Positions 21,903 through 34,502 of a DNA stretch of 34,502 nt are shown here, piece after piece. Location: the IMG/VR virus record IMGVR_UViG_3300017598_000208, positions 1 through 34,502 of that record; one strand, 5' to 3'. The position numbers and the translations under genes were made by a program. The stretch's first letter is position 1. Every line of letters starts with the position of its first letter. Below the pieces are notes generated by a model that did not search any database, was not told the DNA's origin, and was given only the letters and a program-made list of their open reading frames with translations. Source of the DNA: a virus.

Positions 21903-21930
21903 TATGTTTTCTTCTACTGTCTGATAACGA

Positions 21931-23154
21931 TTAACCAGTTAGGCGGACAGCAAAGTCCGGGTTCTGCGCCTTAATACCATAAAGAATATCAAACCGGAAT
22001 ACCGTCTTATCGTTGGTAATGTCGTACTGACGAACCGACCGGATGCTTATGCCTTTAAATGACTCGCGTGCCGAACTAGCACCATCAGAAGGCATATCAA
22101 GAGGAGCCATCGCCAGGGTAATAGCGTTCTTGTGGAAACCAAGATTCTGCGGATAGCTCGCACCTGCCGTACCAGTCTTAACAGTGATCGCTGCATTATC
22201 TGCTGGCGCTGCTGTCACAGTCTGATAAGGGCCGCTTGTGATCATAGGAGGAGAAATGGTCAAAGTAGCCGGGCCTGTTGAAGCACCTGAAGTCGCATCA
22301 GAAACTACAGTGAAGGTTTGAAGATCACCAGTGTCTTGACGAGTTCGACGGTTCACCGCGTTAACGCCCGCGATAGTGATAACATCACCCGCTAGCAGTA
22401 CGTCAGTCGTTGAGTTAGTCCAACCATCAGTAACCAGTGATTGAGTCCAAGCATCGCCTGAAGCCGCATAAGTGACATCCTGAGAAGCACCGTTAATTAA
22501 TGGAGTTCCACCATGTGCGCCAACAGTATGGCTGGTCAGGGAGTTAGACTCGAAAATGTCGAATCGACCGTAACGACCAACGCTAGCCTCTTCAATTGCT
22601 TTTCTAGCTATGTTATCCGGAAACACAGTTTTAAGGCCGTCAGCCAAAGCAACTGAAGCATCCGCATTAACAAATAAGCATCGCTCAGTCATTGGAGCAC
22701 CAAGTTTGCTAATTACCGCGCCCGCTGTAGCTACACTCAAAAAGGTAGTTGGCGTAGTGCCAGGAGTACCGGAAAAGTTACCGATATTGGTATAAACAGC
22801 ACCCAAATCTGATTCAACTTTTTGCGCCAATTCTTCCATTGCTGGCTTGATGAAGCGATTAGTCATATCTTCAACAGACAAAGTCATATCTTGAGAAGTA
22901 ATCTCAAAGTTAACTTTTTGACGTTGATCAAGAGTAACTGTTGCCGCTCTTTCTTCAATGTCTGTAGCTGAGCTGATTGTCGCACCGCTTGACGCTTCAA
23001 ACATTACAGGTCGTCGAACCTGAATAGATGCGCCTACTTTTTGAAACTGACTATCTAGCTGACGGTCAACTTTTTGACCCATCACAAGAGCGTTCAAAAA
23101 CTCTTTAACGGCAATCTTGGTGACAAGACTGGTATTCTTAAAGTTATTACTCAT
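21931..23154 (-). CDS. Major coat protein, P22 gp5-like
   Basis: 407 residues (P22 gp5: 430). The N-terminus MSNNFKNTSLVTKIAVKEFL continues NALVMGQKVDRQLDSQFQKV and GASIQVRRPVMFEAS. With DQRQKVNFEITSQDMTLSVE this is the typical P22 coat (HK97-fold) sequence. Downstream strands include LLAGDVITIAGVNAVNRRTR, which would correspond to the inserted I-domain region, and a C-terminal VFRFDILYGIKAQNPDFAVR. It assembles the icosahedral shell on the scaffold encoded just upstream. A terminator follows 29 bases after the stop. Confidence 0.92.
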   Translation of the reverse strand: MSNNFKNTSLVTKIAVKEFLNALVMGQKVDRQLDSQFQKVGASIQVRRPVMFEASSGATISSATDIEERAATVTLDQRQKVNFEITSQDMTLSVEDMTNRFIKPAMEELAQKVESDLGAVYTNIGNFSGTPGTTPTTFLSVATAGAVISKLGAPMTERCLFVNADASVALADGLKTVFPDNIARKAIEEASVGRYGRFDIFESNSLTSHTVGAHGGTPLINGASQDVTYAASGDAWTQSLVTDGWTNSTTDVLLAGDVITIAGVNAVNRRTRQDTGDLQTFTVVSDATSGASTGPATLTISPPMITSGPYQTVTAAPADNAAITVKTGTAGASYPQNLGFHKNAITLAMAPLDMPSDGASSARESFKGISIRSVRQYDITNDKTVFRFDILYGIKAQNPDFAVRLTG

Positions 23155-23176
23155 AATAAATTTCCTTTATGGCCCT

Positions 23177-23938
23177 TTACGAATTATACAATTCTTCCAT
23201 AGTCATCTCGCTAATGTCTTTCTTTAACGAGCCGCCGGATGTAATTGGTGTAATCGGTTCGGGCGCTGCACTTGTTTTAATTTTCGGTTTAGCGTTTAAA
23301 TTTGCGGCTATCTCACCGAGCGACTGCATAGCCATCAATGGCGACATTTGAGCGATTTTATCGGCCTGGTCTAAATGATGCCCCAAGTGATAGATCAACT
23401 CTGCCCCATGTTCTGACTGCACCAAAGCATCTGCCACGCCATCAGGTAAAGTCGGTATAGCTTTAGCAACGTCAGCAAAATCTGGCTTATTCATAGCAGC
23501 AATTCGCTCGTTGAAACTTGCTTGAGCTTGCTGCGCCTGTTGTGCCTGTGCCTGCTGGTCTATTGCCGCCTTTTCCGCTTGTACCGCTTGAGCAACTTGT
23601 GACTTAATCAAAGCTGCGTTATATGCCTGCTCGTCATAGTCGAAAGCTTCTAGCGTTGGCTCTGCTTCTGCTGGCGCTGGCGTTGCTCTTAATCGTTCTA
23701 GCTCTGCCTCTGCCGCGTCTGCTCTGCGTTGTTCCGCATATTTATCTGCTGTTACTTTGTTGATGCGCTTTTGAAATCCGTCCTCGTGAGGCTTATCCTC
23801 AACAGGCTTGATCTCCGCATCTACGGGTGCTGACTCCGTTGGTTCTGCTGGCGCTTCGACTGGATCAACTTTGGCTACTTCTGCCGCTATCTGTTGGTCA
23901 AGTGTATCGCCTGCAAGTGCAGCATTTTCTTCGCTCAT
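23177..23938 (-). CDS. Scaffolding protein, P22 gp8-like
   Basis: 253 residues (P22 gp8: 303). Acidic, Ala/Glu/Gln-rich and helical (MSEENAALAGDTLDQQIAAE, then RRADAAEAELERLRATPAPA). The helical coat-binding-like C-terminus includes MAMQSLGEIAANLNAKPKIK, followed by DISEMTMEELYNS. It lies directly before the coat gene. Such scaffolds co-assemble with coat and leave before DNA enters. I chose the ATG at 23938; upstream frames to a GTG at 23974 lack a ribosome binding site. It has its own strong promoter. Confidence 0.82.
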   Translation of the reverse strand: MSEENAALAGDTLDQQIAAEVAKVDPVEAPAEPTESAPVDAEIKPVEDKPHEDGFQKRINKVTADKYAEQRRADAAEAELERLRATPAPAEAEPTLEAFDYDEQAYNAALIKSQVAQAVQAEKAAIDQQAQAQQAQQAQASFNERIAAMNKPDFADVAKAIPTLPDGVADALVQSEHGAELIYHLGHHLDQADKIAQMSPLMAMQSLGEIAANLNAKPKIKTSAAPEPITPITSGGSLKKDISEMTMEELYNS

Positions 23939-23999
23939 TACACACCACAAAGGTTGATTATTGATCACCGTCACTTTAGCTTGACGTTAGCTTTATTCT

Positions 24000-24027
24000 A
24001 TTATATGCCAATTCCTGATAGTTTCAA
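24000..24027 (-). promoter_or_regulatory. Strong promoter for scaffold and coat genes
   Basis: Minus strand: TTGAAA at 24027-24022, a 16-bp spacer, TATAAT at 24005-24000. It overlaps and follows the portal stop (TAG at 24031-24029) and lies in the 90-base gap before the scaffold gene, so coat and scaffold can be made in excess over portal and terminase. Confidence 0.75.
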
Positions 24028-24028
24028 G

Positions 24029-26182
24029 CTATCCTAAATTATCTTGACCAACTGAGGCCGATGGTTGTTCCACCGTAAGCCGTCTATTACCTTCAGCCTC
24101 TTGAGCCTGCTCCTGTGCGACTGCACCCTGAACCATGCTATTCGCCTGCTCCGAGTTCGGCCCCTGCTCAATCTGCTCCTGTGCAGCTTCCATAATATCA
24201 GTCTGCTTAACCATAATATTACGATCATCACCGGACAACGGAATGCCAGACTCAAGCTTAGTTTTCAGAGCGTCGATGTAATCTTTGTAAGCTTTGATCG
24301 TGCTGTTCTGAGTATCGACCGTTACCTGCAAAGTTTTCGCATCTTGGTTTTCGATGTCTGAAATCAGCTTTTCAGTCTGAATCTGAATGTTTTCAGTAAT
24401 GGCCTGCTGCTGAGGATCGGGCGCTTGTGGCTGGTTCAATCCTAACTCTTCAACTTCTTGTTCAGTTGGCTCAACGGTTCCTTGCTGAATATAAAGCTTT
24501 CTAACTCGTTTCGTTAACTCCTTACTTTCTAACACTGGAAGATCCTTAGCAACTAGATCCATCGCTATGCCCTCAAATAGCGGGCTAGTTCCTATTAAAT
24601 CAATCAACTGTTGTGCTGATTCCTGTCGTTGAGTTGCGAACGCCGGCCCCGTCTCTGCCACCACATCATATTTACCGAGGCTCAAATCATTAACAATAAC
24701 CTGCTCGCCTGTTTGTCTGTCGATCTCAACTTGATTAATGAATACCTGTTCCGTTTCACCATCCTGTGCCAATATTCTTACTTGCCGCTCTGTGTCATAA
24801 ATCCTTGGGATTAAATCAATCAATATTTCAGCAGTATACTCAATCGACTTGGCTAGGTTATCGCTGAATATAAAGCTGCCCCTATCGCCTTGTCGTTCTT
24901 GAGCTTGAATTGCCTTCCCGCTTTTCAACTCTGGATTAGTGCCAATTGATGGTGGCTGCATTCCGGTAACGTGATACAAATCCATTGAAGCCTGTTGAAT
25001 CTGCTGAATGAAAGCTCCTTGGACTGCTGGCGCTCCCCCTCTTTGTGGCGCACCTGGTGCTTGAGGATCAGCATTGTATAGAAGGAATGGATTGTTCTGA
25101 GTATTGAAATTCTTTAACTGGGGGACGTGACCCTCTGCCTGCTTAGCTGTAATCCAAATAGGGTCTTTAGGCGTTAATGCTGCTGTTTCAATCGCTGCCG
25201 ATGTTGTGTAGTTGTAGATTCTGTTGGCGTCTTTGGCAAAACGAACTAAGCCCCTTGTAAATGTCTGGCTTTCAATATGCGATTGACGACCAAAACAAGG
25301 CACTAATGGAATGAATTTACCAGGAAACAGCTTGGCATCTTCCAGAATCCCGCTACCATCCATGAGAATCATTTCAATTTTATAACTTTTAGCTTTGCGC
25401 CGCTTAACTTCAGTTATGCCCTTTGCTGCCAGCTCATCGAGTATGGCCCCATCTTCATCCTCATTGATGATTCGACTATCAGACAGTAGTACCAGCGTTC
25501 GAGTAATTGGCGTCTTAACCCAGTACTCAGCAACCTTGACCGTATTTTCACCTATCCAATTCGCACAGGTATTGTTATTAAACTTCTCTTGTGACCAATC
25601 AGACATTGGAGAGTTGGGAAACCGCTCCTTGTGTTCTTCCATAGGCATATCTACGGTAACAAATGCCCACATTGAGTCTCTTCTATCATATTCTTTTGCT
25701 GCGTCATCAAACCAAAGCGAGGTAGTTGCTCCCTGCAATGGTTTAATCTTTATCTCTTGGTCGAATCCGTCATCGTCGAATTCTGTAACTATTCTCCAAC
25801 CACCATAACCACCGTTAACCACCTCATCAAACGCGCCATCGTAAGCATTTGCAGCTTTGCTATTGGTTTCGATATTTCGAATAAGCCCAGCTAATACTTT
25901 CGCCACTTCCTCGGATGACTGCCCACCACTAGGCCGGATTTTAATATCTGTTCTGTTCTGGCGCTGATCGCCTATCAACTGATCGACAGCACCAGCAACT
26001 CGGTTAATAGTGTAGCGAGGACGACCGGCACGCTTAGTTATTGCGGACTCATCCCATTGACCATCCTCAGTTTGCGCAAATTTAATATCTTCAACGGCTA
26101 ATCGTCGCTGTTCCTGCTCTTTGTTCTGGATGCGCTCAAATCGATCAAGTGCCAACCGATGCAATTCTTCATTACTTTTCAT
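24029..26182 (-). CDS. Portal protein, P22 gp1-like
   Basis: 717 residues (P22 gp1: 725). The N-terminus MKSNEELHRLALDRFERIQN leads to RYTINRVAGAVDQLIGDQRQ and IKIRPSGGQSSEEVAKVLAG, a segment conserved in P22-type portals. The central clip/stem region is followed by FTRGLVRFAKDANRIYNYTT and PPSIGTNPELKSGKAIQAQE. The C-terminus is a long Gln/Glu-rich helix matching the P22 barrel. It forms the dodecameric DNA channel. The ATG at 26182 has GGAG eight bases upstream and follows the terL stop by two bases. It ends in TAG. Confidence 0.92.
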   Translation of the reverse strand: MKSNEELHRLALDRFERIQNKEQEQRRLAVEDIKFAQTEDGQWDESAITKRAGRPRYTINRVAGAVDQLIGDQRQNRTDIKIRPSGGQSSEEVAKVLAGLIRNIETNSKAANAYDGAFDEVVNGGYGGWRIVTEFDDDGFDQEIKIKPLQGATTSLWFDDAAKEYDRRDSMWAFVTVDMPMEEHKERFPNSPMSDWSQEKFNNNTCANWIGENTVKVAEYWVKTPITRTLVLLSDSRIINEDEDGAILDELAAKGITEVKRRKAKSYKIEMILMDGSGILEDAKLFPGKFIPLVPCFGRQSHIESQTFTRGLVRFAKDANRIYNYTTSAAIETAALTPKDPIWITAKQAEGHVPQLKNFNTQNNPFLLYNADPQAPGAPQRGGAPAVQGAFIQQIQQASMDLYHVTGMQPPSIGTNPELKSGKAIQAQERQGDRGSFIFSDNLAKSIEYTAEILIDLIPRIYDTERQVRILAQDGETEQVFINQVEIDRQTGEQVIVNDLSLGKYDVVAETGPAFATQRQESAQQLIDLIGTSPLFEGIAMDLVAKDLPVLESKELTKRVRKLYIQQGTVEPTEQEVEELGLNQPQAPDPQQQAITENIQIQTEKLISDIENQDAKTLQVTVDTQNSTIKAYKDYIDALKTKLESGIPLSGDDRNIMVKQTDIMEAAQEQIEQGPNSEQANSMVQGAVAQEQAQEAEGNRRLTVEQPSASVGQDNLG

Positions 26183-26184
26183 GC

Positions 26185-27633
26185 TTACCACTCCGATACT
26201 GAGCTTAAATCAATGGTTTGAATTATTGGTGTTACCGACATACTCATCATAAGAGCATCAGCCATGTTTGGACTAGGTATTTTGTGTTTAGTCCACATTT
26301 CCTGCTTCGTCATTATCTGAATCATACCATTACCATTATGCTTTCGGGGGATTCGACACACTTCAGCCCGTAACTGTTCAATATTGGGTATGGATGACGA
26401 CAAACTGATCATTGACTCTGGATCAATATACTCATTTTTCACTACTGCTCGATATGTAGCATAGAATCTATCTCTTAGCATCCAGTAATATTGGGCACGT
26501 TTGTTTTTGAATGTCTGTCTGTTTGTCCTGCTCTTGTCCTGCTCGATTTCTATTCCAACAGGTAGATATGGTTCATCAGGCTCAGCAGGCGATTCGCTGC
26601 CTTTAAACATCGTATAACTGACACTCGTTCCGTCTAATGACTGCCCGACCTGTCGGCGCAAACTTACGCCTAGCCCGTCACAATCCCAATTGAACGTATC
26701 AGCACGATTTATTAATGCGTATTCTGTTGCCCAGTCGCAACCGTCATTTACATCGCCGTCTGTCTTTTCCTGAACGTCCAGAACGACAGAACCATGACGC
26801 AAACATAACCCTTTCGGATCGTTCCCAGTGTCAGATGGATCGTGTGAAACCATTCTAGCGCCCAAAGGCTTGAAACCCTTTTTGATATGGGCATCAATCG
26901 CAGCATCGAACCACTCAACCGGAATTATTGAGTTCTCAACCTCGTCATAATAATCCCCATCCCAGATATGCCGATACTCAGCAGGTGTAAGGTTTTTTTC
27001 GTCGTCGTTGCGCTCTTGCTCAAGCTCAGGAGGGAACCAAGGGTTATCACGCCAGTTTATTTGCACTACCATTAGCAGGTCGTCTTCATAATAGCCGCAG
27101 CGTTTCAGCTCACGCTCTGCCCTGGATAGGTATTTTTTGGCAACGGCATCATTCGTTGAACCTCGGTTCATTGAAATCCAAATTTCTGGCGCTTCACCAT
27201 CCTCAGCAGATGCGCTTGAACGTATTGAAGGCGTTAGTACTTTGAGGCTATTCTCACTTATTGATTCTCCCTCTTCAATCCATAGCCGTTTGACGTTGCC
27301 TATAGACTTGATTGAGGTAATATTTCTAGCAAGGCCCCTGTAGAATATCTCGCCACCGTTGGATGACTGGATTTCTTTCGCTTGAATCCCGAAGCCTTGA
27401 AGATTCATCCGCTGAATAGCTTCCTTTAAGTTCTCGTGTACCGAGTCATCTATTGAGTTCTGGAATTCACGAGCCGCACAAATACGCTCGCCCTGGTCAG
27501 CGAACATCAGCATAATATCACCGAAGGCAATACTTTTCCCGCTTCCCCTGCCGCCCACCGCTATCTTCACCCTCTTTGGAGTAGTGATAAATGGCAACAG
27601 CTTATCTACAATCCTTAGCTCAACTTTAGCCAT
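26185..27633 (-). CDS. terL: Terminase large subunit
   Basis: 482 residues (P22 gp2: 499). Walker A is GGRGSGKS (27-34), and the Walker-B-like LWIEEGES lies at 117-124. An arginine-rich motor segment follows (ISMNRGSTNDAVAKKYLSRA). The nuclease domain begins at ARMVSHDPSDTGNDPKGLCL with the acidic residues expected for metal binding. It translocates DNA into the procapsid and cuts it. The PBSX/P22-like character suggests headful packaging, which would fit a circularly permuted genome. It overlaps terS by 8 bases. Confidence 0.93.
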   Translation of the reverse strand: MAKVELRIVDKLLPFITTPKRVKIAVGGRGSGKSIAFGDIMLMFADQGERICAAREFQNSIDDSVHENLKEAIQRMNLQGFGIQAKEIQSSNGGEIFYRGLARNITSIKSIGNVKRLWIEEGESISENSLKVLTPSIRSSASAEDGEAPEIWISMNRGSTNDAVAKKYLSRAERELKRCGYYEDDLLMVVQINWRDNPWFPPELEQERNDDEKNLTPAEYRHIWDGDYYDEVENSIIPVEWFDAAIDAHIKKGFKPLGARMVSHDPSDTGNDPKGLCLRHGSVVLDVQEKTDGDVNDGCDWATEYALINRADTFNWDCDGLGVSLRRQVGQSLDGTSVSYTMFKGSESPAEPDEPYLPVGIEIEQDKSRTNRQTFKNKRAQYYWMLRDRFYATYRAVVKNEYIDPESMISLSSSIPNIEQLRAEVCRIPRKHNGNGMIQIMTKQEMWTKHKIPSPNMADALMMSMSVTPIIQTIDLSSVSEW

Positions 27634-28036
27634 CTTTTTTAGAAGTCACTGGATGGATGTGCCAATCGTTTTTGATCGTCTTACCGTTACTGGTTATATC
27701 CGTCTTGCTCTTATTATTATCAAATCCACCCGTGTAATCTGATAACGCCTTCCAAGCCGATATGCGAGCCGTTGGGCTTGAGTCGTCCTCAATACTAACC
27801 GCTTCCTTTAACAGCCCTCTGGCAACGTCCTCTGCTGTCACGATGGCTCGATTAGCCGCTTCGTGCATGAATTTTTCGATGAATTCAGCAACGTAAGGTT
27901 TCGTCAAGTTCTCACTAGCAATAGCCTTAGCTGTCTTCTTGCTGTAGCCCGCGCTAAGTGCGGCCTGTGTAGCATTGAAGCCATTGGTGACATACTCCTC
28001 ACAAAACGTCTTTTGCTTTCGCGTCATCTTCGCCAT
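27626..28036 (-). CDS. terS: Terminase small subunit
   Basis: 136 residues. MAKMTRKQKTFCEEYVTNGF followed by NATQAALSAGYSKKTAKAIA is the signature of the Terminase_2 family, with an HTH that recognises the packaging site. KPYVAEFIEKFMHEAANRAI and VTAEDVARGLLKEA continue the helical oligomerisation region. It recruits the large subunit encoded next. It starts three bases after the upstream stop. Confidence 0.93.
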   Translation of the reverse strand: MAKMTRKQKTFCEEYVTNGFNATQAALSAGYSKKTAKAIASENLTKPYVAEFIEKFMHEAANRAIVTAEDVARGLLKEAVSIEDDSSPTARISAWKALSDYTGGFDNNKSKTDITSNGKTIKNDWHIHPVTSKKDG

Positions 28037-28039
28037 AGG

Positions 28040-28354
28040 CTACGGTAATACCCTGAATCGTTCGTAATTAGTCTGTCTAATGTCGGAACTGGAAAAGGTC
28101 GCTTTTAGCTTCATTCTCCATTTGCCGGCATAGTCCAGGTCGTCAGCAGTCAATGTTGTATATTCTGCGTACTCATTAGCTAACAATGTCTCACCGTTCA
28201 CCGTTACATCAACAGCAGGGATTGTCGCCGTGAATTCTTTTGTGGCTCCCACTTCAGGTTCAGCATAAATGATTGCGCTGGTTGCCAGACTTATATCTTC
28301 GCCTAGATTAATTCTGAGAGGCTGTCCTATCTCGCCCTTGTTCAAATCACTCAT
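28040..28354 (-). CDS. Small beta-sandwich-like late protein (104 aa)
   Basis: Begins MSDLNKGEIGQPLRINLGED, then ISLATSAIIYAEPEVGATKE. TLLANEYAEYTTLTADDLDY leads to AGKWRMKLKATFSSSD, which reads like an immunoglobulin-like or carbohydrate-binding strand pattern. I do not know a family. It ends in TAG, so amber is an ordinary stop here too. ATGA coupling to the gene before it places it in the surface-protein cluster upstream of the terminase. Confidence 0.6.
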   Translation of the reverse strand: MSDLNKGEIGQPLRINLGEDISLATSAIIYAEPEVGATKEFTATIPAVDVTVNGETLLANEYAEYTTLTADDLDYAGKWRMKLKATFSSSDIRQTNYERFRVLP

Positions 28355-28593
28355 AGTTTGCCTCTTGTTGTTTTTCCGCTACCAAATGAGCCGCTTGCTG
28401 TCTCACCATCACCGAACGCACCTGACTGAATTAATCCATCTCCAAACACGCCGTTTGCAACCGCTCCTGTTGGTACTGGTATAGTCGGGGGGATAATAGT
28501 AGATATGTTATACCCTGCCGTCACCACAAAAGGGATTGATCCGGTAAATATTCCGTTTCCAAATCCTCTGAGCAATACCGATGAGATACTCAT
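28351..28593 (-). CDS. Small Gly/Phe-repeat protein (80 aa)
   Basis: The second half contains three near-decapeptide units, NGVFGDGLIQ, SGAFGDGETA and SGSFGSGKTT, preceded by a related RGFGNGIFTG. The middle is proline-rich (STIIPPTIPVPTGAVA). Regular GxFGxG units suggest a small beta-roll or a fibre tip, which is inference. The start overlaps the previous TAA (TAATG) and the stop overlaps the next ATG. Confidence 0.6.
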   Translation of the reverse strand: MSISSVLLRGFGNGIFTGSIPFVVTAGYNISTIIPPTIPVPTGAVANGVFGDGLIQSGAFGDGETASGSFGSGKTTRGKL

Positions 28594-29495
28594 TAGCTCG
28601 CCCTAGTTCTGCTAGTTGGCTCTGTGGCATCGTCTAGCGTGTAAGTTGCTGCCGTAGTGCTGCCGTTCAGTTTCTTAACTGTTACTGTTGTTCCGGCTAT
28701 GGAGAAATCACCGATACTCTGCTGAATTAAATAGATAGCCTGTGCCAAGGTTGGTGCTGAACCATCTGCTGCGTACGACTCCGCCATTGACGTAGTAAGC
28801 ACATCAGAAACGCTAATATCATTCAATGCCGCCACACTTGCTGCCGTAGCTGCTGAGTCCGTTCCTCGCATATCTGTATTTGTCGTCACTGTATCGACTA
28901 AATCAACATTAACTACCGCACCGGATAGCGTTGTAATGGCTCCCGCGCTAACAATATCAGTAGCCGCAACATCGTTTAGGCCGCTTATCTGCCCTGGTAT
29001 CGTTGTTGCTGTATCGGTTTCAATTGCGTCAATACTGGCCTGAGTTGCTGTAAGTAGATTCACCCCACTTGCACCAGTAATAATATCAAGATCATTTTGA
29101 GCAGTTGTTATCTGACCTGGCAGAGTCGTTCCGGTATCAACCAGTATAGCATCCACATTAGTATCAACTGTCGCCAAGGCCGAGGCAGTAGCCGCCAAAC
29201 TAATCTTGGTATCATTGTCGACCGTCTGAGGGAATTGGGTATAAACCTGAAGCGTTGCAGGGATCGCACCAGTTCCAGTAAACGTAAATGCTATGTGATC
29301 GCCATTTGTCTCTGCTTGTGTTGGTGTGTATGAATGAAAACCGTTACCCTCTGAAGCCGGAGCAGTCCCACCACCAGCGCCCTGTGTTCCACCGTCCACC
29401 GTTACCGCAACCGATACTGAGCCGGTAAATGCCGTCCCATCTGCTGCCGTTATCATTTGAGCGCCGATAATCTGGCTTGCAACATTCTTCTTCAT
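28593..29495 (-). CDS. Phage structural or receptor-binding protein (300 aa)
   Basis: N-terminal beta domain (QIIGAQMITAADGTAFTGSV, then HIAFTFTGTGAIPATLQVYT). The middle consists of repeating helical segments with the motif TTLPGQI/TTIPGQI, and MRGTDSAATAASVAALNDIS. The C-terminus (LAQAIYLIQQSIGDFSIAGT) leads to VKKLNGSTTAATYTLDDATE. This C-terminal cassette is very common in virion-associated proteins of metagenomic phages. It probably forms a trimeric fibre or neck structure, but the exact role is unknown. Confidence 0.68.
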   Translation of the reverse strand: MKKNVASQIIGAQMITAADGTAFTGSVSVAVTVDGGTQGAGGGTAPASEGNGFHSYTPTQAETNGDHIAFTFTGTGAIPATLQVYTQFPQTVDNDTKISLAATASALATVDTNVDAILVDTGTTLPGQITTAQNDLDIITGASGVNLLTATQASIDAIETDTATTIPGQISGLNDVAATDIVSAGAITTLSGAVVNVDLVDTVTTNTDMRGTDSAATAASVAALNDISVSDVLTTSMAESYAADGSAPTLAQAIYLIQQSIGDFSIAGTTVTVKKLNGSTTAATYTLDDATEPTSRTRAS

Positions 29496-29501
29496 TTTAT
29501 T

Positions 29502-30074
29502 TTACCCAATAATTGCATTAGATGACCCAGCCCATGCTGATTGAAACCCACCGCCACCACCAGCCACCACCTCTAAAATAGCTCCGTTACAGTAAGAAAA
29601 TACACTTACAATATCTTGAGATACACTCAATATGCCATCACCCGGAACAGTACCCGTAAAAACAACCGGCGCTGTCATTGCAGTAGTACTAGCAGATGCA
29701 ACGTATCGCTCTGTTGTTGCCTCAACCGTGAAATCTGTGTCTCTTCCGGTACTTCCTCGATGGCCTATTAGTGAAATGGTATAATCATCACCTGACGTTA
29801 GTCCGGTAATATCAAATGCACCGGCACCACTACCACCGTAAAAATAAAACTCCCATACCAGTTCTGGGAAATCATGCAACGCATTATCAGCAATAGCACC
29901 ACTCCCTGTCGCGCCAGTCCATGCTGTAGTAGAAGAAAATTCTACGCCTGCCGATGTAGAACCACCATCGTCCTCTAATGCCTGCGTCCTGGGTGCAGAG
30001 AAATCAGAAATTTTATTCCATCCAGTCGGATTTGTACTGCCGGACGTGCAAAAATTCAGATTAAATATAGTCAT
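29502..30074 (-). CDS. Surface / carbohydrate-binding-like protein (190 aa)
   Basis: N-terminus MTIFNLNFCTSGSTNPTGWN followed by beta-rich, Gly/Ser/Thr-rich sequence (DITGLTSGDDYTISLIGHRG). The C-terminus GGGGGFQSAWAGSSNAIIG matches a short tail (FQxAWAxxSNxII) that recurs in phage surface proteins. This suggests a jelly-roll carbohydrate-binding domain. The host ligand cannot be told from the sequence. It is coupled (ATGA) to the membrane protein before it. Confidence 0.6.
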   Translation of the reverse strand: MTIFNLNFCTSGSTNPTGWNKISDFSAPRTQALEDDGGSTSAGVEFSSTTAWTGATGSGAIADNALHDFPELVWEFYFYGGSGAGAFDITGLTSGDDYTISLIGHRGSTGRDTDFTVEATTERYVASASTTAMTAPVVFTGTVPGDGILSVSQDIVSVFSYCNGAILEVVAGGGGGFQSAWAGSSNAIIG

Positions 30075-30379
30075 AGATCATCAGCCCTGTTTAATGGTCG
30101 GTGCTTTGATCGTCTGTCTGCGACTTCTTGCCGCCTATCTGATTCTCGCTGAATCATTATCCTCATTTCTAGTCTGGCCTTTTCCGCCTGAATCTTTGAT
30201 TTTCGCAGGTGCGTAATAATCAGCACGATCGATAATATGCCGCCAAGCAGCCCGCCCAGTTTAGCAATATCTGCCGGTATCCAACTGAACCAGGCGCCAA
30301 TACCTGTGCTTGTCGTGCTAATAGCCACAACTGACGCCGCCTTAACATTAGTGGTTATGTCTGCAATTGTCTGTTGCAT
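30071..30379 (-). CDS. Membrane protein, possible holin (102 aa)
   Basis: N-terminal hydrophobic stretch VVAISTTSTGIGAWFSWI and a second one KLGGLLGGILSIVLIITHLR, followed by a long charged tail (KARLEMRIMIQRESDRRQEV). Two membrane segments and a charged cytoplasmic tail fit a class II holin, and it lies next to the lysis genes. It could be another lysis or virion membrane protein. I chose the ATG at 30379 with AGGA upstream; a TTG at 30385 would add two residues. An extended -10 (30412-30407) precedes it. Confidence 0.6.
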   Translation of the reverse strand: MQQTIADITTNVKAASVVAISTTSTGIGAWFSWIPADIAKLGGLLGGILSIVLIITHLRKSKIQAEKARLEMRIMIQRESDRRQEVADRRSKHRPLNRADDL

Positions 30380-30406
30380 AAGCAATCCTGCTGATTAGTT
30401 TTATTC

Positions 30407-30414
30407 AGTATAGC
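30407..30414 (-). promoter_or_regulatory. Extended -10 promoter element before the small membrane protein
   Basis: Minus strand TGCTATACTG with TATACT at 30412-30407, preceded by AT-rich TAATTATTT. No good -35 is seen 16-18 bp upstream. The same word occurs before the 123-residue gene (21876) and rha (32559), and a variant (TGCTAAACT) before the lysis cassette (31423). Confidence 0.55.
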
Positions 30415-30426
30415 AAAATAATTAGA

Positions 30427-30780
30427 TTATCGCCTTGTTATCCTGATGCCAAAACTGGTTAGGATCGCAACGCCTAGCCAGTACTGATAAAAGTCTGGCA
30501 TCTTCACCAGCGCATCAAATCCAGCTTCAATGTAAATGGCTCCACCTGGGATGAAACACGCTATTGCCGGAACCGATAGTATTACTGTCCAAAATTCATC
30601 TTTCCAGCTATGCGCTCCACCCTCCGATTGTATCCGCTCCCACTCTGCAATTTTATCCTATGCGCTAACTAGCCGCTCGATTTTCTGCTGCGTGATTTTT
30701 GTTTTGTTGTCGTTGCGCTTGCTGAATAGCGTAGTTATTGGTGAAATCAGTCCTGTAACAATATCACCGAATATGCTCAC
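30427..30780 (-). pseudogene. Holin-like membrane protein interrupted by an in-frame TAG
   Basis: Starting from the GTG at 30780, which overlaps the endolysin TGA (GTGA), the frame gives 40 residues (MSIFGDIVTGLISPITTLFS ... KIERLVSA). It then meets TAG at 30660-30658. Without that stop the frame continues for 77 more residues to TAA at 30429-30427. That continuation contains GGAHSWKDEFWTVILSVPAI, a second hydrophobic stretch WLGVAILTSFGI, and SFGIRITRR at the end. The SWKDE-WTxI-x-PxIxxFIPG pattern is that of a common phage holin-like family, and protein-like sequence clearly runs on past the stop. It may be a nonsense mutation, a read-through site, restart at the ATT codon after AGGATAAA, or a base error. 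Confidence 0.75.
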
Positions 30781-31256
30781 TTTACATAACGTCGATAATG
30801 AGCAACAAACTCGTCCGTTGTAGCAGCCCCCAGATGGGTGTTGTAGACTCTTTTGTATGTCTTAGCCAGACCTTCAACATCATCGGATTCAGGCAATGGC
30901 TCCGGGTCCATCCAGTATTTTAACCTACATAACGCCGTTGCAAGTCTCACATCAAAAATTATCGAACTGATTGCATGATGCCTGGGCGCTAGGATGTACG
31001 GCATTGCCGCATCAATGAACTTTTTTTCAATGTCTTTGTGAAGAGGTAGGTATCGATACATTATGTCATCTGCCGTCATTGGCTCCATTTGATATATTCC
31101 GATTGCAGGCCCTCCGCCTAGCTGTCTGACATATTTTCCCATCAATGACTCTTGGGCGCATGTTCCTAGCAGCAAGTTAACCGCTGATTCAGAATACATA
31201 TCCATTTTTTTTAGAGTTGGTTCGATGATGTGGTGTTTGAGCTGGTCGGAATTCAT
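30777..31256 (-). CDS. Endolysin, lysozyme-like
   Basis: 159 residues. LLLGTCAQESLMGKYVRQLG has a glutamate (E36) placed as the catalytic acid of lysozyme-fold enzymes, followed by GGGPAIGIYQMEPMTADDIM, the substrate-cleft segment. The C-terminal part GLAKTYKRVYNTHLGAATTD is conserved in this phage family, often annotated only as hypothetical beside holins. No signal peptide is seen, so release to the wall would need a holin. Bond specificity is unproven. Its TGA overlaps the GTG of the holin-like gene. Confidence 0.72.
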   Translation of the reverse strand: MNSDQLKHHIIEPTLKKMDMYSESAVNLLLGTCAQESLMGKYVRQLGGGPAIGIYQMEPMTADDIMYRYLPLHKDIEKKFIDAAMPYILAPRHHAISSIIFDVRLATALCRLKYWMDPEPLPESDDVEGLAKTYKRVYNTHLGAATTDEFVAHYRRYVK

Positions 31257-31480
31257 TATAAATCCTGATTGCTGAATAGGTTGCAGGGATCACGCCTGCT
31301 TTATCATCGATTAATCTTATTTGAGTCTGCGTCGACTGGCAGACCTACCAACTAAATTAAATTTTGGTTACAGCCATCATAGATTTAGTTGATTACGGAA
31401 CTCCTTATTGCCTGTTTAGTTTAGCACAATAATTAATCGTCACAATGATTGTACTCTTTTATTCATATCAGCTCCTTATC
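31257..31480. promoter_or_regulatory. Lysis-cassette leader with promoter and two hairpins
   Basis: Minus strand: TTGTGA, 16 bp, TAAACT (31423-31418, extended as TGCTAAACT) is a plausible promoter. The roughly 160-base leader contains GTCTGC/GCAGAC (31325-31344, 8-base loop) and GCAGG/CCTGC (31283-31299, 7-base loop). AGTTGGTAG (31353-31345) stands before the first. An 8-codon ORF (31466-31440) with a strong TAAGGAG site lies upstream of the promoter. The two hairpins look partly tRNA-like but do not make an acceptor stem. Confidence 0.45.
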
Positions 31481-31825
31481 CTAAAAAAAACTTGCTTCGA
31501 ACAACCCGCTTTGTTGGCCAAACATATTGCCCCCAAATGAGCGACTTCTTCTTACTGCTTCAGCCTGAGCATTAATATCGCCAGACCTCACTAGACTTTC
31601 ACGATCCGACAGTCTAGTTTTTTCTTTATGCGCTGCAAGCAACTCATCAATAGCCGCGTCGTCATCGATATACATTTTTTGTATTTTGCAGGTAAGTCTT
31701 AAATCTTCAAGCTCTTTAACCTGACTTTCAAGCTGTTCATTCCTGATTCTGTATATTTCAAGTTTGGCGTTCAAACCTGCAACTTTATCAATGTTAAAAA
31801 GTTTCCTTAGAAATTTAATGTTCAT
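31481..31825 (-). CDS. Coiled-coil protein (114 aa)
   Basis: Begins MNIKFLRKLFNIDKVAGLNA, then a long heptad-rich helix (KLEIYRIRNEQLESQVKELE) and an acidic segment (MYIDDDAAIDELLAAHKEKT). The C-terminus is different, Gly/Phe-rich (SFGGNMFGQQSGLFEASFF). It is probably a parallel coiled-coil oligomer; function is unknown. The start overlaps the Rha-like stop (ATGA), and the stop is TAG. Confidence 0.62.
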   Translation of the reverse strand: MNIKFLRKLFNIDKVAGLNAKLEIYRIRNEQLESQVKELEDLRLTCKIQKMYIDDDAAIDELLAAHKEKTRLSDRESLVRSGDINAQAEAVRRSRSFGGNMFGQQSGLFEASFF

Positions 31826-32481
31826 ATCAACTCCTTTACCTTCGCGTAGGTTTCTTTGTCAGTCATCACACTAGTAAATCCTTCAACCAACACGGCTATC
31901 TTAGACTCCATTGCCTGCACCTCCTCAAGTTCAACACTTGTTAGATGGTTCCTAATATTATCAGTCGTTTTCAGCCCACGATCCTCCTTAATCTTCTTTA
32001 CAGTCGAGCCAAGTACCTTTTTGTAAACGAGTTTCGTATAATTCCCGAAAGCAAACCGCTTGTGATTTGTGTTGTCTTGAAGATTTTGATTTATTGAGTC
32101 GGTTAGCGAATGCCTTACCATTTTACCGATTGACCTAGTTTCTGATCGCGCGAAAAGTTCATGCTCCATAAAATTGAATTGTTTTATGAAAGCAACTTTT
32201 ATCAAATTGGCTTTTTTACCGTTGAAGCTCATAACTATAAACATGAACTGATCACGGTCTAAAAGGTATTCTTGATAAGTCTTACCTCTTGAATCAGTGT
32301 AATCTCGCTGCGTAACTTTACGCACCGAAAAAAACTCAACACTATCATTTCTTATAAATGAGTTAACAACTCTAACCACATCAGAATGACGCTTATTAAA
32401 TTCTTTAGCGATTATTCGAGTTGATGCGACTGGTGTGGCTTTTGAAATATCTTGGGTGGTTAATTGTACGAGGGTATTCAT
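31822..32481 (-). CDS. rha: Rha-family phage regulatory protein
   Basis: 219 residues. The N-terminal segment (STRIIAKEFNKRHSDVVRVV) and the continuation (KVTQRDYTDSRGKTYQEYLL, DRDQFMFIVMSFNGKKANLI) are the Rha domain. That domain occurs in lambdoid and temperate phages and alters growth in hosts lacking IHF. The C-terminal half (about 120-219) is helical, basic and unassigned (HKRFAFGNYTKLVYKKVLGS). It is the first gene of the leftward late strand, behind a promoter that overlaps a perfect inverted repeat. Confidence 0.85.
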   Translation of the reverse strand: MNTLVQLTTQDISKATPVASTRIIAKEFNKRHSDVVRVVNSFIRNDSVEFFSVRKVTQRDYTDSRGKTYQEYLLDRDQFMFIVMSFNGKKANLIKVAFIKQFNFMEHELFARSETRSIGKMVRHSLTDSINQNLQDNTNHKRFAFGNYTKLVYKKVLGSTVKKIKEDRGLKTTDNIRNHLTSVELEEVQAMESKIAVLVEGFTSVMTDKETYAKVKELI

Positions 32482-32553
32482 AACTAAGGCTCATTTTAGT
32501 GGGTTTGTGTTGGTACTTGCCGGCAATGAGTAACCGGCGTTCGCAACAACTAC

Positions 32554-32604
32554 AGTATAGCACAATATTAAAGGGTTGCTCAATTAAGAACAACCCTTTA
32601 ATAT
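32554..32604 (-). promoter_or_regulatory. rha promoter within a perfect inverted repeat
   Basis: ATATTAAAGGGTTG (32565-32578) and CAACCCTTTAATAT (32591-32604) are perfect complements separated by 12 bases. Between and beside them, on the minus strand, TTGAGC, 18 bp and the extended -10 TGCTATACT (TATACT = 32559-32554) make a promoter for rha. One arm of the repeat fills the spacer, so a dimer bound there would block it. The stem has no U-run and is unlikely to be a terminator. Confidence 0.6.
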
Positions 32605-33245
32605 GGGGATATTGCCGATGGCTTGCAGGCCACGGGAACAGATACACATGAATACCATCACCGCTTCGGCATGACGCAATTCTATCAAATCTGTTTCTAC
32701 CCTTGCAAGCTTTCGTTTAGATAGTACGGTTTCACCATGCCCCAACTTGGGCTGATTACTGGCAAGTGTCATAGAAGAGGGTACTGACCTGCCCCGCCAG
32801 CATCAGTAAGTGGACACAGGTTCAATATTGGACGCTGGTCGCCCTTGGGATTCCATGTAGAGTACGGACCGTTGAGATTGGATAGACGCCTCTTCAATCC
32901 AGAATGCTGAGAGCAAGTGTAGGTTATAGGATCTGTAAAGTCCTTGCGCTGGCACCAAGTTTTAAAGTGCCTTCACTCAGTTGTTATAAGACTATCGAAT
33001 ACAGCGCCTTTCCATTTTTTCACCTTAGTTGAGTCTTAGTGTACTCAAGATTTTATGGTATGTGATTGATTGACAAACTACCCTATTAAGTTAAAAAAGC
33101 ACTGTTCCAAATGAATGTTTAGCGTTAACCGTTCCTCCTCATGTTTACTGCTAAATACTCGCATCGCCACTATACCAAGCCAGCCTAATACCTCTTTGGT
33201 AAAGTTTCTTTACACTACCTGCCGATAATATAGTTACTAACAGCC

Positions 33246-33254
33246 TGTGGATAA
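33246..33254 (-). promoter_or_regulatory. DnaA box
   Basis: TGTGGATAA is the complement of TTATCCACA, an exact match to the strong DnaA-binding consensus. It is a single copy in this non-coding stretch, 11 bases before the terminator, so a chance match is possible. Confidence 0.4.
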
Positions 33255-33264
33255 CTCAAATAGT

Positions 33265-33294
33265 AGGCACAAAAAAGCCCGCATAAAGCAGGCT
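33265..33294 (-). terminator. Terminator of the rep operon (exact copy of 1800-1829)
   Basis: The same 30-base block as at 1800-1829, read leftward AGCCTGC-TTTAT-GCGGGCT-TTTTTTG. It follows the ParB-like gene by 57 bases and ends the operon that begins with the RepL-like gene and crosses the contig junction. Confidence 0.85.
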
Positions 33295-33351
33295 AAAATT
33301 TGAAGTAACACACCATGAGCGGCTAGTGTATCACGAATTTATTATTGCCGA

Positions 33352-34122
33352 TTAAATAACTGGGAATCTCTCATTTCCAAAACTAAAAAATATTCTTTTT
33401 ATTTCCCTGGACTCAATGAAAGCCCGATAAGATTTTATAGTTACAGCAGCGCCTTCAGTTTTAGCCCTGGCATAGTTGGTGCCTTTTCGAGCCTCCCACT
33501 CATACAGCCTTTTAACTGGACAGTTCATACTATCAAACAGGCCGTCATTGTACTTTTTGATAAATCGATTAACGCCGTCTACATCTTTTCCCGATAAAAT
33601 ATAAAGTGCTGCGACTTGATGCGTTTTATATTTCAATGTTACTGCCACAAACTCCTCTAAATCCCTATTATCTACAACAAACTTCAGGACTTCATTATTT
33701 GAAAATCTGCGCCGGGTGCAAAACTTAAAATCACCATCGTTATGATTAAATTCGTTCAATTCTAAAATCATTCTAGCTATAGCGGTTAACCTGTTTGAGT
33801 TTCTATTGCCATTCATAGCTATGATGTCATTAGCTGTCCTCAGACGCCCTGTGTCAATCGTTGCAAAAGCCAGGTCTGACTGCACCCCTTCAACTTTTTC
33901 TGTCTCGAACGGAACGCCTGAAGCCACACAAGCCATTAATCTATGCTGACCATCCAGTAACACGCCGTTTGCGCCAATCACTATCGACTGACCATTATAG
34001 ATCCATTCGCCCTCTTTCATTTGTCTTGCTAAAAAATCTACATGTTTATAATTTACTTTTCTATTATCAGTATTTCGACTTAATATAGATTTTGCTTCAG
34101 TTGGTGTGATTAAAAATTTCAT
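33352..34122 (-). CDS. ParB/Srx-fold phage protein
   Basis: 256 residues. The N-terminus (MKFLITPTEAKSILSRNTDN) leads to a domain with GEWIYNGQSIVIGANGVLLD and the signature DGQHRL at 57-62, continuing ACVASGVPFETEKVEGV. GQHRL-type sequences mark the ParB N-terminal/sulfiredoxin fold, where the conserved Gly-Gln-His-Arg region binds nucleotide. Related phage proteins have no established role; some ParB-fold enzymes hydrolyse CTP. The rest of the chain is helical. No ParA gene is present, so a true partition role is not supported. AAAGGT lies seven bases before the ATG. Confidence 0.7.
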   Translation of the reverse strand: MKFLITPTEAKSILSRNTDNRKVNYKHVDFLARQMKEGEWIYNGQSIVIGANGVLLDGQHRLMACVASGVPFETEKVEGVQSDLAFATIDTGRLRTANDIIAMNGNRNSNRLTAIARMILELNEFNHNDGDFKFCTRRRFSNNEVLKFVVDNRDLEEFVAVTLKYKTHQVAALYILSGKDVDGVNRFIKKYNDGLFDSMNCPVKRLYEWEARKGTNYARAKTEGAAVTIKSYRAFIESREIKRIFFSFGNERFPVI

Positions 34123-34143
34123 GGTTTTTACCTTTTAGTTATA

Positions 34144-34284
34144 TTATTTTATTAAACTTACTATCAACCAGGCCAATACAGCCATCGTTACCACAGGCCC
34201 CACTATTGCACTTGCTACAGCAGCCCGCTGGCGTTCAATTTTAAACTTTCTAATCTCTCGATCCATCACGCATTCTTCGTACAT
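34144..34284 (-). CDS. Small single-pass membrane protein (46 aa)
   Basis: Begins MYEECVMDREIRKFKIERQR, then AAVASAIVGPVVTMAVLAWL, one transmembrane segment at residues about 21-44. The ATG at 34284 has AAGGA upstream. The frame is open further to 34362, but that would overlap the preceding gene by 50 bases. Probably N-in, C-out; function unknown. Confidence 0.6.
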   Translation of the reverse strand: MYEECVMDREIRKFKIERQRAAVASAIVGPVVTMAVLAWLIVSLIK

Positions 34285-34312
34285 TTCTATCCTTTTAAAA
34301 CTATTAACGACA

Positions 34313-34502
34313 TTATTTAAAGTTGATAAACGCGAAAACTTCCAGCCACTTTTCCCGGTCAATATTATGACCTAGCGTCCTTACTATTCGATTTTCTTCT
34401 CTGTCCCTGTCATCCGATGTTATGGCGTCTCTCAAATTGCGTAAAATTACGCCTTTTGCCTGTGCTGGTATATTGCCCCACTCTTTTATAATCTCATCAC
34501 AA
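34313..34502 (-). CDS. Small conserved phage protein, C-terminal part (crosses the contig ends)
   Basis: This is the continuation of the frame that starts at 72. Counting the shared 10 bases once, it reads through FCDEIIKEWGNIPAQAKGVI, then LRNLRDAITSDDRDREENRI and ends EKWLEVFAFINFK at TAA (34315-34313). The pattern W-x-x-I-P-x-x-A-K-x-V-I-x-R-x-L and the following acidic helix fit the small phage family named for the other half. The uninterrupted frame across the junction is the evidence that the contig closes on itself. It is 29 bases upstream of the next gene. Confidence 0.75.
   Translation of the reverse strand, partial: CDEIIKEWGNIPAQAKGVILRNLRDAITSDDRDREENRIVRTLGHNIDREKWLEVFAFINFK

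Follow-up and report, generated by a model that had tools for sequence, protein, structure and literature searches.

Organization of the lysis cassette

The window, meaning the whole stretch of 34,502 nucleotides analysed here, is an IMG/VR virus record. Its lysis cassette lies on the minus strand and consists of a putative endolysin gene, an interrupted gene denoted hol1 and, directly after it, a second gene for a holin-like protein, hol2. The main elements are as follows.

30777 to 31256, minus strand: putative endolysin, the stop of which overlaps the hol1 start (PHROG 3108, E = 1.6e-42; weak Pfam SLT match, E = 0.09).
30427 to 30780, minus strand: hol1, an interrupted PHROG 2524 gene of 117 codons with an internal TAG (translation, profile match, alignment).
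30661 to 30780, minus strand: hol1 codons 1–40, a predicted N-terminal helix without the two C-terminal membrane helices (prediction).
30658 to 30660, minus strand: in-frame TAG, codon 41 (translation; this stop is absent from the frame in relatives).
30430 to 30657, minus strand: hol1 codons 42–117, in which lie the two membrane helices (predicted) and 12 of the 13 positions invariant in the family (alignment, prediction).
30407 to 30424, minus strand: promoter-like element of the extended −10 type in the gap between hol1 and hol2; it is among three near-copies (sequence).
30071 to 30379, minus strand: hol2, a second holin-like protein of 102 residues (PHROG 13707, E = 2e-20; PHROG 20 holin, E = 5.7e-6).

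The hol1 frame runs from a GTG (30780) to a TAA (30427) and contains a single internal stop, the TAG at 30660–30658 (codon 41 of 117). Translated, it reads VSIFGDIVTGLISPITTLFSKRNDNKTKITQQKIERLVSA-stop-DKIAEWERIQSEGGAHSWKDEFWTVILSVPAIACFIPGG...GIRITRR-stop. Within the sequence GTGA, the GTG start and the stop of the endolysin gene overlap. Both the amber codon and this overlap are as described in an earlier note on the same DNA, which had also considered both halves of the frame to be protein-like. With the TAG read through, the PHROG 2524 profile matches residues 7–115 without a break (E = 6.6e-24), and the alignment with the nearest relative is gapless over residues 1–116. Judged by the profile match and the gapless alignment, the second half is more than a chance reading frame, and what precedes and what follows the TAG are parts of a single family, PHROG 2524. 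The other two frames contain several stops each and the predicted membrane helices lie in frame zero, so that no single shift of frame would restore the protein. The predicted structure of hol1 is of low confidence (pLDDT 66, pTM 0.35), and a fold search with this low-confidence model gave no significant match.

The PHROG 2524 family

PHROG 2524 is annotated as ‘unknown function’, and no match to the hol1 family was found in Pfam, NCBIfam or the solved structures. The members feature an N-terminal helix, the motif SWKDEFWT and then two hydrophobic helices (in hol1, as seen in a low-confidence model). Members such as TC6_021, NVP1113A_25 and L001 1874–2221 resemble hol1 in length, in the two C-terminal membrane helices, in the SWKDEFWT motif and, often, in being adjacent to an endolysin; in contrast with hol1 and its amber at codon 41, the members examined have an uninterrupted frame.

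The PHROG 2524 gene often adjoins an endolysin gene. In L001 it directly follows a GH24 lysozyme gene (E = 3.2e-13), with a 4-base overlap as in hol1, while in Pseudomonas phage TC6 a GH24 lysozyme gene (E = 1.9e-46) is followed by one small gene and then by the PHROG 2524 gene. It follows an annotated endolysin in Vibrio phage K396 and a DD-peptidase in Vibrio phage 1.113.A, and is positioned just before a chitinase-like gene in CRP-902. Open reading frames that resemble M15 peptidases, as judged by eye, lie directly upstream in L009 and L146. No endolysin was found beside the gene in L003, L007 or the Ackermannviridae phage phiMAM1. These neighbours point to lysis, which makes a role as holin or holin partner likely; a family that repeatedly adjoins endolysins of unrelated classes is a good holin candidate. 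The description of hol1 as holin-like in the earlier note holds in so far as it is a small membrane protein beside an endolysin, and this only if the TAG is read through; as a functional label it is one that we infer from the gene neighbours. A match to a curated holin family is lacking for hol1 (Pfam, NCBIfam) and present for hol2, which matches the PHROG 20 holins.

One PHROG 2524 member is annotated as DUF3154 in its record, and TeaA of phage ICP1, a proven holin, was assigned by its authors to DUF3154/GTA_holin_3TM. No sequence relation between PHROG 2524 and TeaA was found (profile comparison, 0.5% probability), and ICP1 ORF137, the protein that was used as TeaA, belongs to PHROG 1544.

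The amber site in relatives

None of the 80 viral-contig relatives contains a stop in the frame aligned with hol1; all 80 are uninterrupted. Alignment of homologues at the TAG site, the check proposed at the outset, places Asp there in L001 (64% identity) and Glu in L002–L006 (53–55%), and the frame is also intact in L146, a relative in a bacterial assembly (57% identity). Uniformly uninterrupted close relatives around a lone interrupted isolate had been named in the earlier note as evidence that would speak against a special role of the codon; this is the pattern among the relatives within reach, none of which is close. A megablast search of 26000–34502 against phages returned no close DNA relative, nor did a search of the viral contigs for an exact 30-base pattern. 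L084, the nearest phage by terminase (80%), has no hol1, hol2 or endolysin match in the stretch compared. With one copy of this genome, no relative closer than 64% and records very near it possibly absent from the collections searched, the TAG is only presumably limited to this lineage, and a sibling that carries it may exist.

TAG as a terminator

The 47 likely genes of the window end in TAA (22), TGA (20) or TAG (5). The TAG end of the portal gene is at the same place as the portal end in L084 and L086, and a 104-residue gene (28354–28040) ends in TAG at the same residue at which its homologues end with TAA (L085, L086, L105), TGA (L090) or TAG (L084). By the number of TAG ends and their agreement with homologues, TAG works as a stop in this phage, which supports the earlier statements that several of its genes end in TAG and that general amber recoding is unlikely. 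One codon separates the 104-residue gene from the small terminase gene, with which it shares its frame (28354–27626, minus strand); read-through at its TAG would fuse the two, but homologues stop at the same residue with other codons.

Among the window genes with detectable relatives, no other interrupted gene was found on the coding strand. Plus-strand hits within 22132–27201, considered as broken genes, were rejected as shadow ORFs opposite minus-strand genes (terminase and portal among them). The 34.5 kb record yielded no tRNA gene, and it may not be complete.

Phages in which TAG is reassigned have many interrupted genes and a low coding density under table 11 (PMC11210395), and in phAss-1 TAG occurs within 41 ORFs (PMC10607447). 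For phages that read TAG as Gln (code 15; crAss-like phages and others), regulation of late genes has been proposed (PMC11210395), and an in-frame TAG in a lysis-region gene is a feature that hol1 shares with them. This phage differs in having a single in-frame TAG, in using TAG as a terminator and in having no suppressor tRNA that could be found, whereas under code 15 TAG would be absent as terminator and frequent within genes. A general reading of TAG as an amino acid, by the phage or by its host, would explain the one gene with an in-frame TAG, but with only that gene interrupted, five genes ending in TAG, and the ends of the 104-residue gene and the portal gene agreeing with homologues, this is hardly credible.

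Age of the stop

The second half of hol1 keeps all 12 of its positions that are invariant in 18 relatives, as well as all nine with a conservation of 80% or more. Of the positions that do not vary among relatives, hol1 differs at 4 of 41 and L001 at 8 of 45, so that such changes are not commoner in hol1. A dN/dS comparison of hol1 with its nearest relatives carries no information, since synonymous sites are saturated. In a simulation of neutral change, the frame stayed open and every invariant position was preserved in 17% of cases at 0.05 substitutions per site, in 6.6% at 0.08 and in 3.3% at 0.10.

Since the second half retains both its invariant positions and its open frame, the amber codon is young (fewer than about 0.09 neutral substitutions per site); a less likely alternative is continued production of the full-length protein. 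How well the second half is conserved does not distinguish a young stop from a read-through product that works. The young stop is favoured because relatives lack the stop, no suppressor or stimulating element was found in the window, and isolated nonsense codons and base errors are common.

Origin of the amber codon

The most probable explanation is that codon 41 of hol1 recently turned amber by point mutation in this one phage lineage, and that the gene is inactive or nearly so. Translation coupled to that of the endolysin would then yield a peptide of 40 residues that lacks both membrane helices, and lysis would rest on the endolysin and the adjacent hol2. We take the mutation to be fixed and not a variant. 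As it stands, the amber in hol1 is an ordinary isolated nonsense codon, and calls for caution in the automatic annotation of metagenome phages.

The main rival to a recent nonsense mutation, considerably less probable but not negligible, is an error in the base call or consensus: the TAG would be an artefact of base calling or assembly, or a minority variant, and the real population would carry an intact gene. The window being an IMG/VR virus record, the difference of a single codon in an otherwise intact, constrained gene and the intact state of all relatives are consistent with this; on the other hand, the search for further interrupted genes in the window found none, and hence the assembly as a whole is not a poor one. 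The earlier note had listed programmed read-through among its options, and considered that controlled read-through of a lysis gene would be a new device for the timing of lysis. In such a model, programmed or tolerated, low-level amber suppression would give mostly the 40-residue peptide and little full-length protein, and lysis would be delayed. The intact and conserved second half of hol1 fits it, as does the place of hol1 in a lysis cassette, where even a little of the protein could have an effect; in addition, the predicted helix break spans codons 40–43 (low-confidence model), so that an inserted residue would be tolerable there. Yet TAG terminates other genes of this phage, a second holin candidate, hol2, is present, and no suppressor tRNA was found in the window. 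The extension is conserved in relatives (best 64% identity) and the stop is not. The 101 nucleotides from the stop fold no better than shuffled sequences (z = −0.46), a test that is limited by the fact that some read-through sites need no structure, and no Rfam match was found. Read-through in this sense is thus unsupported and seems improbable; slightly more doubtful still is the proposal that the amber is kept by selection, with low-level read-through by a near-cognate or suppressor tRNA of the host limiting the full-length holin-like protein and setting the time of lysis. If read-through were real, it would amount to a lysis timer that works at translation, in a phage that uses the standard code.

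Two further possibilities, each very unlikely, concern the parts of hol1 as separate products. The 40-residue N-terminal fragment could be kept as a regulator resembling an antiholin, with the second half on its way out. The fragment is a predicted helix with a hydrophobic start, and the overlap of its own start codon with the end of the endolysin gene may couple its translation to that gene; however, the N-terminal part is the less conserved one, with 1 of the 13 invariant positions, and in no relative is it encoded alone. Alternatively, the membrane part could be made by a restart at a non-standard ATT at codon 44, the restart candidate nearest to the stop, with an AGGA four bases before it. 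ATT start codons are very rare, and the first in-frame ATG, GTG or TTG after the TAG is codon 92, which lies beyond the first membrane helix; the restart raised in the earlier note would therefore be unusual.

hol2, the endolysin and promoter-like elements

If a point mutation has inactivated hol1, the position of hol2 directly downstream, behind its own promoter-like element, suggests that the loss could be tolerated. Since an extended −10-like element lies between the two genes, hol2 may be transcribed independently of hol1 and need not depend on translation through it. The suggestion that hol2 (30071–30379) could compensate gains support from its PHROG 20 holin match (E = 5.7e-6), and we infer that it does so. 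In L105, an M15-peptidase-like ORF comes after the relative of hol2. Phages that encode two holin-like proteins can, as shown elsewhere, do without one of them (PMC13056207), and P1 has several holins (PMC9025707). The two-holin cassettes of the mycobacteriophage F1 cluster and of P1 resemble the present one in having two small membrane-protein genes beside an endolysin, but differ in protein families and gene order, and the roles of hol1 and hol2 here are putative.

The putative endolysin (30777–31256) shows a weak match to lytic transglycosylases (SLT). PHROG 3108 is annotated as unknown function; relatives of the putative endolysin occur in Vibrio, Pseudoalteromonas and Erwinia phages, where they adjoin a holin-annotated gene or stand near terminase genes, and the family can probably be called an endolysin family.

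Three near-copies of the extended −10-like element are present in the window, against a chance expectation of 0.04. The element TTAATATTGTGCTATACT and its near-copies are located at 32571–32554, 31435–31418, 30424–30407 and 21883–21871 (all minus strand), preceding, in this order, a Rha-like gene, the endolysin, hol2 and a 123-residue gene; the expectation of 0.04 covers the first three together. The exact core of the element was not found in the other loci compared. Perfect hairpins at 21905–21870 (z = −4.8) and 32610–32560 (z = −8.1), both on the minus strand, run straight into a promoter-like element, a combination that we take to be reminiscent of the stem-loop promoter cassettes of T4-type phages.

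Between a 114-residue gene and the endolysin lie about 220 bases without an evident long gene (31480–31260, minus strand). This region contains an AAGGAG site and an ORF of eight codons (ATGAATAAAAGAGTACAATCATTGTGA) that immediately follows the TAG at the end of the 114-residue gene.
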